From NCBI GenBank assembly GCA_947502405.1, contig CANMZT010000007.1, positions 62,001-126,000 of the forward strand: a stretch of 64,000 nt of DNA, in the 5' to 3' direction. Positions 15,353-59,858 of the stretch are shown piece by piece; position 1 is the stretch's first letter, and each line of letters begins with the position of its first letter. The position numbers and the translations under genes were made by a program. This DNA is from an uncultured Algibacter sp. GTDB lineage: Bacteria; Bacteroidota; Bacteroidia; Flavobacteriales; Flavobacteriaceae. The notes under the pieces were generated by a model that did not search any database, had not been told where the DNA came from, and saw only the letters and a list, made by a program, of their open reading frames with translations.

Positions 15353-15425
15353 TTGACTTTGTAAAAATTTTCTACTAACTTCGTTTAACGGGGAATATAA
15401 GCCATTACATAATGGTGCATATCCA
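15353..15425 (+). promoter_or_regulatory. Cassette-like upstream module, copy L1
   Basis: TTGACTTTG-N14-TAACTTCGTTTAACGGGGAATATAAGCCATTACATAATGGTGCATATCC; aligns with 32979 and 57176. Confidence 0.6.
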
Positions 15426-15462
15426 GAAATATGTAAGCAACAAGCTAAAAATACAGAACCCT

Positions 15463-15966
15463 ATGATACATTTAATTTGGTCAATAATAAACGGAATAAT
15501 TTTTTTGTACTTTTTATATTTGATTGTGGGTTTTATAGCAAAAGGAAGACGAATTTTTAAACCTCAATTTAAAGTTGTTTCTATTTTTATAATGGTAATC
15601 GGTATTATCCAAATAATTTCTGCTTCAAACTCGAAAAAAAACACAAATCGAATAATAATAAATGACGAGTATAAGAAAACAAATAACTCAAAAATTAAAA
15701 ACGTAATTCTTGAAGATAATTTGACTTTCGACATAAATATGCTCGTAAAATATTCAATTGACAATAAAGAATTTATACCAATAGAAAGCAATAGTTTTTT
15801 GACTGGATTAGTTAGTGGCTATATTTGGGAATTTAAGTCCATTCAAATAAACAATCACAAACCGAATGAAAAATCGAAATATATCGCTAACGGAATTTTG
15901 AAATGGAATCTATTCGGAATTAATATTTATAGTGAATCGAAAACATTTAGTGGAATTATGGAATAG
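15463..15966 (+). CDS. Hypothetical membrane protein, single gene of putative cassette L1
   Basis: ORF 15412-15966; the first ATG lies inside the repeated module, so MIHLIWSIINGIIF is the likelier start. Two TM segments. Confidence 0.55.
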   Translation: MIHLIWSIINGIIFLYFLYLIVGFIAKGRRIFKPQFKVVSIFIMVIGIIQIISASNSKKNTNRIIINDEYKKTNNSKIKNVILEDNLTFDINMLVKYSIDNKEFIPIESNSFLTGLVSGYIWEFKSIQINNHKPNEKSKYIANGILKWNLFGINIYSESKTFSGIME

Positions 15967-16099
15967 TAAAAGCCTGTTGATAACAGCTTAAATAGCTCAT
16001 AGCTAATTATTAGAGGTTGAGCATATATGGAAAGTCGTCAAATTTAAAAATCTGGCTTGTGCTAAATCCGAAAATAATCGCTAATTAAATCGTAACTGA

Positions 16100-16111
16100 C
16101 CGTTAAACGAA
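16100..16111. repeat. 12-bp inverted partner of the L1 upstream site
   Basis: CCGTTAAACGAA is the exact reverse complement of TTCGTTTAACGG at 15380-15391. Confidence 0.55.
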
Positions 16112-16120
16112 CCAAAAAAA

Positions 16121-17890: not shown

Positions 17891-17955
17891 TAATTTTTAA
17901 TTGCTTTTGCAAATGACCCCAAGCGCTGTTTAGTGTTTGACTTTGGCGTATGTGC

Positions 17956-18050
17956 GCGCTAGGGATTGTAGTGGATAGCTTTTGGCGAGGCGTGCATCGA
18001 GCCAAAACTTGTAACGGAAAGCCCGACCCTTGGGTAGCGCCCAAATAATT
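17956..18050 (-). repeat. Dispersed element copy B
   Basis: Ends GCGCTA/TAGCGC; inner hairpin TTTTGGC...GCCAAAA (17980-18007). Confidence 0.6.
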
Positions 18051-32978: not shown

Positions 32979-33050
32979 TCGACTTTGCTAAAAATTCAAC
33001 TAAATTCCTTTAACGCAGGGTATAACTCATTAAAAACACATATATCTGTA
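32979..33050 (+). promoter_or_regulatory. Cassette-like upstream module, copy L2
   Basis: TCGACTTTG...CTAAATTCCTTTAACGCAGGGTATAACTCATTAAAAACACATAT; aligns with L1 and L3. Confidence 0.55.
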
Positions 33051-33085
33051 AAACATTGTGCTTCATTATAACCAACCATTAACCA

Positions 33086-33829
33086 ATGATAAAATTCTTT
33101 AGAACAATCCGCAAAAAAATGCTGACTGAAAACAAATTCAGTAAATATCTGATTTATGCGATTGGTGAAATTGTACTTGTTGTAATTGGAATTTTGATTG
33201 CATTATCAATCAATAATTGGAACCAAGAACGAATCCAGAAAAATGAAGAACAAACCATTGTAAAGAACATTCATACTGAATATTTGCAAAACAAAACGAT
33301 TATAAAAAAAAGAATTGAGGAAGCTGAATTATGTGAAGCAGCCCTTAAACAATTAATGAACATTATGGGTAAAGACGAAGATTATCTTAAAAAGCAAAAT
33401 GTCGACAGTTTACTTTTTATTGCCTTTGACCCTCCTATATTCAGACCCTCGGAAAACACCATTTCTGGTCTCATACAATCAGGACGTTTGGATTTGCTCC
33501 AAAATAAGGAATTAGTTAATTTAATATATAGTTGGGGACGAACGATGAAGTCGTTGACAGATAGAACAGCAAGATTTACTACATTAATGGATAACGATAT
33601 TTTTCCCTACTTAACAAAAAAATATTCCTATAAAGATATCGATACCTATGGCCTATTAAATTGGAAAGAAAAATCGAACCTGAAGGTGGATAAACTTCAA
33701 ATTTTTAAAGAAATTGAATTCGAAAATCTTACTGACGGGTTTTTATACTGGATGGTAGATAACAAAAACCTATTTATTGAATTAGACCTTTTGATTGATA
33801 AAATTCTTAAGGAAACTCAGTATGATTAA
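33086..33829 (+). CDS. DUF6090-family protein
   Basis: MIKFFRTIRKKML...KYLIYAIGEIVLVVIGILIALSINNWNQ. Confidence 0.85.
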   Translation: MIKFFRTIRKKMLTENKFSKYLIYAIGEIVLVVIGILIALSINNWNQERIQKNEEQTIVKNIHTEYLQNKTIIKKRIEEAELCEAALKQLMNIMGKDEDYLKKQNVDSLLFIAFDPPIFRPSENTISGLIQSGRLDLLQNKELVNLIYSWGRTMKSLTDRTARFTTLMDNDIFPYLTKKYSYKDIDTYGLLNWKEKSNLKVDKLQIFKEIEFENLTDGFLYWMVDNKNLFIELDLLIDKILKETQYD

Positions 33830-33854
33830 ATTATAAATGGCGTAAGCACAAAAA

Positions 33855-33863
33855 CGCTAAACG
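33855..33863. repeat. Downstream boundary site of putative cassette L2
   Basis: CGCTAAACG(ACG)AACC, compare CGTTAAACG-AACC at 16101. Confidence 0.4.
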
Positions 33864-33890
33864 ACGAACCTATTAAAACTTACACAGAAA

Positions 33891-57175: not shown

Positions 57176-57245
57176 TTGACTTTGTGAGAAAAAAATGATA
57201 ACTTCGTTTAGCGTTGGATGTAGGTCATTAAAACGACGCATAGCC
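57176..57245 (+). promoter_or_regulatory. Cassette-like upstream module, copy L3
   Basis: TTGACTTTG...TAACTTCGTTTAGCGTTGGATGTAGGTCATTAAAACGACGCATAG; aligns with L1 and L2. Confidence 0.6.
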
Positions 57246-57294
57246 GCGGAACTTTAGCTGTAATTTCAAGGAACACTACTCACCTATTGAATAA

Positions 57295-59628
57295 ATGAAT
57301 TTAAGAAGTACTGAAGAAATTATTCAAGAAATTAAATCCTTGGTTTATACAACAGGATTCATTTATACTTTGTGCTTAATCTTAGTAGAAGATTTTCATC
57401 TCAATGCAGAAGAAATGCACGAGGTTGATTTTAGAGCAAGACTTAACAAAAATGAAATATCTCTATTAATTGGTTTTCTAATCCAGAAAGAAATTTCTTT
57501 AGAGAAGCCTAAACATCCTCTTGACCTAATTAACCTCAAGAAAAAAACAAGAAAAATAATGGATGAACTTCATTCATCCACAATGATTCCTTCAATTAAT
57601 AAATTCAGACCTATAATTGATAACTTAAAAGAAGGAAATGATATAAGCCCGAGTAAAGAAGATTTTTTTGGAGGCGAAGATATGTTTATTGAACCCATTT
57701 TTTATTCAGGAGATGGAATATATGATTTTCAATACTTAGAGTACTTAGATAAAAAATACAAGTATGATGAAAAATGGTTAAATGAAAACACAAATTTCTA
57801 TTTTGATGAAGTAATTGAAATTGCAAATAGAATCAAATCAATTCATAAAGAAAAATTTCAAAAAGTCAATTTCTTAAGTCTACAAGAGAATAAGGATAAA
57901 TTTAAAAAAAAATTAAAAGAGAGTAAATCCGTTTCTAATAGACAAATTGAGCAAAACTTTGAAGAACTAATTTCAATGTTAGAGTTTTATCAGTTTTTTG
58001 AACTATTCGATTCTGAATCTGACTTAATGGAAAAACTTACTAAAAAAGAAGTTTCAGAAAAAGGGTGGAATTCTTTTTATAAAGGTCTTCTTAATATTTT
58101 TTGCATAAAAAAAACAGATTTTAGTGATAATGAAAAAATATCAAATTTTATTGAAAATTTTGCTATTCCAATAGATGCTGATGGCAGAAATTCTCAATTT
58201 CAGAATATCGGAGATTTTAATCTTTTTTCAGCAAAACCAATTATTCCATTAGGTGCTGAATTATTCTTTATCCCTATTTCTTTTTCATTACTTGAAGCTA
58301 TTTATGAAAGTCCTTATTATTGGATGTTAACAGATAAAAAATACAAAGATAGTCTAGCGTTAAATCGAGGTAAAGTTGGAGAAGAAATAACTTATGAAAT
58401 TCTAGAGAAAATATTTGGAAAAGATCGTGTTTTTAAATCAGTTCGAATCGAATCTAAAAAAGGCTATGATGATACTGACATAGACGTTTTATGCATACTA
58501 GGCAGTATCGCATTATGTGTTCAGGTCAAATCAAAGAAACTCACTCAATTATCTAGGCAAGGAAATTTTGAGCAATTGCGAAAAGATTTTAAAGGTGCTG
58601 TACAAGATGCATACAATCAAGGTCTAGTGTGTAGAGAACGAATCTTAGAAAAAAAAGCGACTTTTTATAATGAACAGAATGAGAAAATTGATTTATTAGA
58701 AGATATTGAAGATGTGTATCTTCTAGTAGTCACAACAGAAAACTATCCTACTTTAGCACATCAATCATTTACTTTATTAGACAAAAAAGAGAATAATCCC
58801 TTTCCGCTAGTAGTAACAATTTTTGATTTAGAGTTGATTGGTCATTATCTAGATAAACCATACGATTTTCTATACTACGTACGTCAAAGAATTGATTTAA
58901 TGGAATCTTACTACGCAGAAGAGGAAATGCATTTTTTAGGATATCATCTAATCAATAAATTATGGAAAAACCCTGAATATGGTTATGTTATGATAACTTC
59001 AGAATATGGTCAATTAATTGATAGAAATTATTACCCTTTTAAAATAGGTTTAGAGACTTCTGCAAAAAGTGATAAAATTAGAAACAGATGGAAAAATGAT
59101 GATTTTGATATTTTATGTAGAGAAATTGAATTATTAAAAACACCCAAAACTACTGATGTAATTTTCCATCTACTTGACTTGTCACAAGAGTCAAGAGAAA
59201 ACATAATAACACATATCAAACTTGCAAAATCAAAAACAAGTAAAGATTACAAACAACATAATTTTTCCATTATATCAGGCCCAGTTAGGTCTTCTTTTGG
59301 AATGACATATATTTCTTGGAAGAATAATGATATCGAATCGCTTTCCAATAGGCTTTATATTCAAAGCCGAGGAAGAAAATACAAAAGCAAAGCGGATTTC
59401 TGGGTTGGATTTGGTTCACTCAAAGACAGTGGTAAAATGGTTGACACTTTAGTGTTCAGTAATGAAAAATGGAAATATGACAAGGAATTAGAAGAAGAAG
59501 TTCAAGTTCTATTTGGAGGCAAGAATAACGGAACACCAATAAAGCTCGGTAAAAAAGTAGGAAGAAATGAATTTTGTCCTTGTGGTAGTGGAATAAAATA
59601 TAAAAAATGCTGTGGAAGAAAATATTAA
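57295..59628 (+). CDS. PD-(D/E)XK-like nuclease candidate with C-terminal SEC-C zinc motif
   Basis: RGKVGEEITYEILEKIFG...DDTDIDVLCILGSIALCVQVKSKK; C-terminal GRNEFCPCGSGIKYKKCCG. Confidence 0.75.
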   Translation: MNLRSTEEIIQEIKSLVYTTGFIYTLCLILVEDFHLNAEEMHEVDFRARLNKNEISLLIGFLIQKEISLEKPKHPLDLINLKKKTRKIMDELHSSTMIPSINKFRPIIDNLKEGNDISPSKEDFFGGEDMFIEPIFYSGDGIYDFQYLEYLDKKYKYDEKWLNENTNFYFDEVIEIANRIKSIHKEKFQKVNFLSLQENKDKFKKKLKESKSVSNRQIEQNFEELISMLEFYQFFELFDSESDLMEKLTKKEVSEKGWNSFYKGLLNIFCIKKTDFSDNEKISNFIENFAIPIDADGRNSQFQNIGDFNLFSAKPIIPLGAELFFIPISFSLLEAIYESPYYWMLTDKKYKDSLALNRGKVGEEITYEILEKIFGKDRVFKSVRIESKKGYDDTDIDVLCILGSIALCVQVKSKKLTQLSRQGNFEQLRKDFKGAVQDAYNQGLVCRERILEKKATFYNEQNEKIDLLEDIEDVYLLVVTTENYPTLAHQSFTLLDKKENNPFPLVVTIFDLELIGHYLDKPYDFLYYVRQRIDLMESYYAEEEMHFLGYHLINKLWKNPEYGYVMITSEYGQLIDRNYYPFKIGLETSAKSDKIRNRWKNDDFDILCREIELLKTPKTTDVIFHLLDLSQESRENIITHIKLAKSKTSKDYKQHNFSIISGPVRSSFGMTYISWKNNDIESLSNRLYIQSRGRKYKSKADFWVGFGSLKDSGKMVDTLVFSNEKWKYDKELEEEVQVLFGGKNNGTPIKLGKKVGRNEFCPCGSGIKYKKCCGRKY

Positions 59629-59670
59629 AAAAAATACAGCTCAATACAAGAAACCAAGCTAGCAAATACC

Positions 59671-59774
59671 CCCGCGTTAGTGATTGCAGAGGAAAGCCCA
59701 CAGCTTTTGCGCCTTAGCGCAGAAGCGAGGACTTGGAACGGAAAGCGCGACCTGCAGGGTAACGCCCAAATAAT
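59671..59774 (-). repeat. Dispersed element copy E
   Basis: GCGTTA (59674-59679) / TAACGC (59760-59765); inner hairpin TGCGC-CTTA-GCGCA (59708-59721). Confidence 0.6.
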
Positions 59775-59858
59775 TAACAAAAAACATAACATTTTATTAA
59801 GAATGATACCTATTATATTTTTCTATCTTTAAGACTAAATCAAACAAAATAAAATATT

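Follow-up and report, generated by a model that had tools for sequence, protein, structure and literature searches.

Dispersed promoter-equipped sites in a flavobacterial chromosome that probably receive single cassettes of an integron system with a non-IntI integrase

Between a yceI-like gene and an epimerase gene of an uncultured Algibacter sp. lies a single gene that is preceded by a promoter-like module and enclosed by 12-bp inverted sequences, and the locus raises the question of whether the gene, the promoter, or both are mobile. The window, i.e., the whole stretch of 64,000 nucleotides that was analyzed, is contig C7:62001-126000 of genome G000 (3.79 Mb, 81 contigs). A preliminary description of this DNA had proposed a family of mobile single-gene units equipped with their own promoter. 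The mobility was upheld and the movement of the promoter with the unit was not, because empty sites retain the promoter. The feature is very likely one of about 20-40 chromosomal landing pads (hereafter pads), which are dispersed, vertically inherited, promoter-equipped single-cassette sites of an integron system with a non-IntI integrase.

The upstream module, TTGACTTTG-N14-TAACTTCGTTTAACG, has an exact match at 15353-15390 (pad 1) and a copy with one mismatch at 57176-57213 (pad 3), and shuffled sequence contained none. The copy at 32979 (pad 2), TCGACTTTG..TAAATTCCTTTAACGC, is a more diverged member that a covariance model recovered (C7:94976). The recurrence of the module before unrelated genes, as originally reported, was confirmed for all three. 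In the whole genome, the 38-bp pattern occurs 14 times at three or fewer mismatches (reversed control, 0), the covariance model finds 27 copies, and the pattern is followed on its 3′ side by a hairpin with variable arms and a constant loop, CATTAAAACG. Within the window, the 12-mer TTCGTTTAACGG is found without mismatch only at 15380-15391 and, as its reverse complement, at 16100-16111, and 12 copies were found at two or fewer mismatches vs. 5.4 expected; this 12-mer is weak taken alone and real in context. The gene start had been placed at 15412, a position that falls within the hairpin, and the ATG at 15463 is more likely. The components of pad 1 are as follows.

15353..15383, + strand: promoter, TTG (15353), N20 and TAACTTCG (15376-15383); 14 genome copies; the fixed part.
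15380..15391, + strand: 5′ arm of the hairpin, R''-like, CGTTTAAC; reverse complement of 16100-16111.
15391..15426, + strand: inner arms and loop, AATATAAGCC-ATTACATAA-TGGTGCATATCC, eroded; aligned with other pads.
15427..16101, + strand: degenerate cassette between the two arms; left junction at about 15432.
15463..15966, + strand: cassette gene, membrane-type protein, probably of 167 amino acids (184 if started at 15412).
16100..16111, + strand: 3′ arm, R'-like, CCG^TTAAACGAA; from the junction comparison of G000, G002, G007 and G008, which places the putative crossover before the TT.

The yceI-epimerase gap was compared across genus relatives of G000. In G002, yceI and the epimerase gene are joined by an empty site (L016/L173), a state whose existence in close relatives the preliminary description had anticipated: the promoter is retained and is followed by a single uninterrupted site, GTTTAACGTCGGATATAAGTCATTAAAACGACGCATATCCGTAAAAACATTAAACGAACC, with no gene. 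As in other empty pads, the two 12-bp arms form one continuous hairpin. The gap of G008 has the same left part as that of G002, then a different gene (248 amino acids) and then ACCG|TTAAACGAACC; G007 carries a further, different insert, and G000 carries the gene of the window. Homology at this locus ends at the 3′ arm of the hairpin and resumes at the downstream boundary, at R' (pad +752), within about 5 bp. Since G002 has an empty site and the other three genomes have different inserts, the inverted boundaries, which are real as described, represent a single hairpin site whose two arms have been separated by the inserted gene. As far as can be read from the aligned genomes, the comparison establishes empty and occupied states with exact exchange boundaries and a crossover before the TT of the core. 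Neither G005 nor G009 has a pad at the yceI locus; given this, entire pads may be slowly gained or lost.

The same exchange was found at other loci. Orthologous pad sets were sorted by their upstream flanks and 21 were kept; the group L165/L177/L210, with offset flanks and no hairpin in L165, was left out. The contents differ between species in 19 of the 21 groups, eight of which include an empty site, and the remaining two consist of one group with the same cassette and one in which both pads are empty. On the upstream side, homology mostly covers the promoter and the hairpin and ends between about +60 and +95, counted from the start of the pad. On the downstream side, about a dozen pairs become homologous again at R', to within about 5 bp (for example, L173 +83 with L190 +966, and L161 +1170 with L216 +206). 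Each of the three window pads has an orthologous pad with other content in a relative. At pad 2 the same gene is found in G008 and a different cassette in G002, and at pad 3 the G008 orthologue (L192) holds another gene. Some loci are common to different genera: in G079, pad L260 follows the gene that also precedes pad 1, and in G026, L256 is at the L154 locus. Judging from these alignments, pads and promoters are vertically inherited at fixed loci, even between genera, and the cassettes are replaced. Occurrence of the motif at vertically inherited promoters had been named as a finding that would speak against mobile units; it holds for the promoter and does not hold for the genes behind it.

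Pads were counted with a covariance model of 83 positions (R1), built on eight sequences of one hairpin sub-type, because two sub-types are shifted by one base, which blocked a structure-aware alignment of all pads; the model probably undercounts them. Besides the 27 pads of G000, it found 31 in G002, 34 in G007, 42 in G008 and 0 to 23 in six other congeners. Under stricter filters, it located pads in 26 of 151 Flavobacteriaceae genomes, representing 25 of 150 genera. In addition to the three window pads, 76 loci were read individually. The pads share a conserved sequence with matched arms, a promoter-like sequence is present at every pad read, and 11 of the loci are empty pads that retain the promoter. 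The best preserved of these, L220, has a perfect 23-bp stem and an 11-nt loop (z -7.6; L200, z -7.5). A search of Rfam identified no known structured RNA family at the pads. Three further loci called empty by a regular expression (L166, L205 and L221) were rejected, as each starts with a cassette whose first bases mimic R'.

The inserts of different pads have little in common except for their last ~125 bp. This region ends CG|TTA at R' and contains stems such as GTGTAT..ATACAC, GTATAT..ATATAC and GGCTAT..ATAGCC, with 18 two-sided changes, a number reached in none of 500 shuffles; sliding the partner abolishes the pairing. The matched R''/R' arms and covarying stem of an integron attC are therefore both found, in eroded form in the window's own cassettes. 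Each cassette opens with the reverse complement of the sequence that precedes its own AAC (R''). Of 40 pad cassettes, 26 match their own R'' at six or seven of seven positions vs. 37 of 1560 cross pairs. Circular cassettes that have a closed attC would leave such complementarity between 5′ and 3′ ends. Where a cassette can be delimited cleanly, its longest frame has the same orientation as the pad promoter. Copies of one cassette occupy several sites: four pads in G007 share a gene-less cassette of ~125 bp (93-100% identity), and a second such cassette, of ~225 bp, is shared by three G002 pads and one G000 pad (87-98% identity). As a separate observation, the same 369-amino acid cassette gene is found in L194 (G008) and L211 (G007), where the cargo is 99.7% identical and the flanks ~91%, which looks like a recent transfer between species.

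The preliminary description had suggested looking for a shared recombinase in the rest of the genome, and a strong candidate is encoded there. A tyrosine recombinase gene (C7:198435-199571; 368-378 amino acids) lies after secA, 72 kb to the right of the window, and is followed on its 3′ side by ..GTTATACAATTG|TTGTGCCTAATTTG, which has the form of an attI and first cassette. The integrase is present in 10 of 10 genus members (the G002 copy is split by a frameshift), and with its adjacent attI it is directly followed by tandem cassette arrays in G007 (about 12 cassettes in 20 kb), G001 (eight), G002 (six) and the complete genome G049 (more than 20). The attC sites of arrays and pads are homologous and of the same types. 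Relatives of pad cargo were also found in integrase arrays of other genera: the DUF6090 protein of the window at 39% over 150 amino acids (L078), L178 at 67% (L083) and L194 at 45% (L071). In many relatives the integrase gene lies within 3 kb of a contig end; short-read assemblies therefore hide arrays.

The integrase has an SPLD-type C-terminal motif like that of IntI and an N-terminal extension, and it lacks the IntI-specific insertion. Its score against the integron-integrase model TIGR02249 is 181.7 bits, below the cut-off of 265. In a quick tree, for which the program warned of long branches, the integrase forms a clade (91) adjacent to that of IntI (100), and the two are separated from XerC/XerD (98). 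The sub-cut-off score, the absent insertion and the separate clade therefore place this integron-type system outside the IntI integron class. No true IntI above the cut-off was found in 31 Flavobacteriaceae genomes vs. 85 of 299 genomes of the phylum, nearly all of them from other classes.

These features can be combined in a model. An empty pad would consist of a sigma-A-type promoter followed directly by an attC-like hairpin of ~58 bp, TTCGTTTAACG..CATTAAAACG..CG|TTAAACGAA, with matched R''/R' arms. The circle of a cassette, usually one gene plus an attC of ~125 bp, would recombine through its own attC with this hairpin, with the TT of the R' arm as the insertion point. The gene would land directly behind the pad promoter, TTG-N20-TAnnTTCG (compare TAnnTTTG, the -7 box of flavobacteria; PMC9723704), which is predicted to express it. 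Insertion would split the hairpin, leaving its arms as the 12-bp inverted boundaries, and excision would restore it. The likely recombinase is the IntI-related tyrosine integrase without the IntI-specific insertion, encoded beside an apparently conventional array; by analogy with integrons it may act on the pads through a folded strand. In this scheme, cassettes would be stored in the integrase-linked array and expressed from the pads. The system is probably a decentralized integron in which a conventional array is combined with dozens of fixed one-slot promoter sites, so that many cassettes are expressed singly at once, and in which the integrase without the IntI-specific domain is widespread in the family.

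Several observations weigh against this model. The three window pads look old and eroded (pad 1 folds weakly, z -1.5, and pads 2 and 3 have no stable fold) and may be inactive now. The array of G000 itself is visible for only 128 bp before the contig ends. G006 has the integrase yet no pads, and four of the 26 pad-bearing genomes of the family have no integrase match better than 1e-40. The enzyme also lacks a domain held essential for IntI (PMC8138268).

The pads and cassettes could be real and be worked by XerC/XerD or another recombinase, with the integrase serving only its array. XerC/D are also present throughout the genus, and the mismatched distribution of pads and integrase just described agrees with this reading. 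Nonetheless, pad cassettes share attC types and junction with the integrase arrays, and cargo families are common to both, making this explanation unlikely. The proximity of pad L014 to xerC (L031), considered as a link to a recombinase, is regarded as a coincidence: it is the rpsU-xerC-hpf locus, which encodes the housekeeping enzyme.

It is more doubtful still that the mobile unit comprises the promoter, the gene and the boundaries together, as first proposed. The same promoter-hairpin module does recur before unrelated genes, but empty sites keep the promoter and homology breaks 3′ of the hairpin, where the mobile part begins, instead of 5′ of the promoter. In addition, the similarity of the promoter spacer is 0.86 between orthologous pads vs. 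0.71 between pads within one genome and 0.71 between unrelated pads. The spacer is more alike between orthologues, and the promoter therefore belongs to the locus. The same two properties, a locus-specific spacer and empty sites with a promoter, are not those of a promoter-carrying mobile element such as a miniature inverted-repeat transposable element (MITE) or a mobile promoter.

It is very improbable that cargo is exchanged without a site-specific reaction, by homologous recombination among conserved pad sequences and copies of attC. Pad hairpins look homogenized within genomes (0.88 in G002), which suggests conversion between pads, but the constant TT junction, the complementarity of cassettes to their own R'' and the covarying attC stems point to cassette circles and structure-specific recombination. 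A lack of mobility, with ordinary, vertically inherited genes that share a promoter motif, would agree with the inheritance of the pads themselves, even between genera, and is refuted by the differing contents and empty sites of the orthologous groups.

The preferred model, an integron system with dispersed slots, resembles chromosomal (sedentary) integrons (IntI, attI, attC, Pc) in its single-gene cassettes, 3′ attC hairpins, R''/R' arms, crossover before TT and tandem arrays adjoining a tyrosine integrase. It differs in its integrase, which has no IntI-specific insertion and falls in a separate clade, and in the dozens of dispersed promoter-equipped single slots that exist besides the array. 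At attG sites, integron cassettes are inserted in the genome outside arrays, and both the sequence and the structure of these sites diverge from those of classical att sites (PMC12901181). The attG sites and pads are alike in holding cassettes outside arrays; however, the pads are conserved promoter-hairpin sites with matched arms, vertically kept and subject to repeated turnover, and not divergent non-classical sites. CALIN or lone attC sites (IntegronFinder, PMC9024848) share with pads the presence of attC cassettes away from the integrase gene, but a pad is a fixed promoter-bearing acceptor with defined empty and occupied states and not a leftover array. Simple tyrosine recombinases include an integron-like subgroup with members that lack the insertion, and the insertion is held essential for integron function (PMC8138268). 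The integrase described here likewise groups with IntI against XerC/D (98); here, however, insertion-less enzymes adjoin clear cassette arrays.

In Bacteroidetes proper, IntegronFinder 2.0 detected a single complete integron, that of Salinibacter (PMC9024848). Expression in large chromosomal integrons is limited to the first few cassettes (PMC11023631). A literature search, which excluded subscription papers and preprints, returned no report of Flavobacteriaceae integrons with this enzyme, nor of dispersed promoter-equipped sites. Scattered one-slot sites paired with an integron enzyme without the signature domain appear to be undescribed, provisionally, because subscription papers and preprints were outside the search. 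If the model is correct, a genome with dispersed slots could express dozens of cassettes independently of one another. Integrons would then be central to the turnover of genes in a major environmental family from which surveys have recorded hardly any (PMC9024848), and a natural lineage would carry out integron recombination without a domain that is regarded as essential for it. The pads are also a simple positional handle for accessory genes, among them nuclease-domain, ATPase, lipoprotein and unknown genes.

The remaining pads of the window are listed below.

32979..33055, + strand: pad 2, promoter and eroded hairpin; covariance hit C7:94976-95057; orthologues L170 and L204.
33056..33870, + strand: pad 2 cassette with a DUF6090 gene at 33086-33829 (Pfam).
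57176..57252, + strand: pad 3, promoter with an eroded hairpin; orthologue L192 (G008).
57253..59641, + strand: pad 3 cassette; 777-amino acid NERD + SEC-C protein at 57295-59628.

The pad 2 cassette has complementary 5′ and 3′ ends: the DUF6090 gene is followed by the complement TAAGCACAA and then by a truncated attC joined to cGCTAAACGACGAACC. In the pad 3 cassette the 3′ complement ACAGCT is at ~59636, and attC and R' are unrecognizable. Pfam and NCBIfam searches gave no match for the cassette protein of pad 1. A repeat, GCGTTAGGGATTG..GGTAACGCC, lies a few tens of bases downstream of several pads (L150, L160, L161 and window ~59670-59800). A Flavo-1 RNA (RF01705) was found at 17953-18032 of the window (43.5 bits), with more copies in L173 and L220, away from the pads themselves; these matches and the gene content agree with placement in the Flavobacteriaceae. 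The complete genome G109 contains eight near-identical copies of a tyrosine recombinase with a 304-amino acid frame, probably a tyrosine-recombinase transposon. Finally, the pad hairpins of G002 are more similar within the genome (0.88) than between orthologues (0.80), with adjoining spacers that are locus-specific, and those of G000 vary most (0.65). Such homogenization would be compatible both with conversion between pads and with co-evolution of pads and resident integrase.
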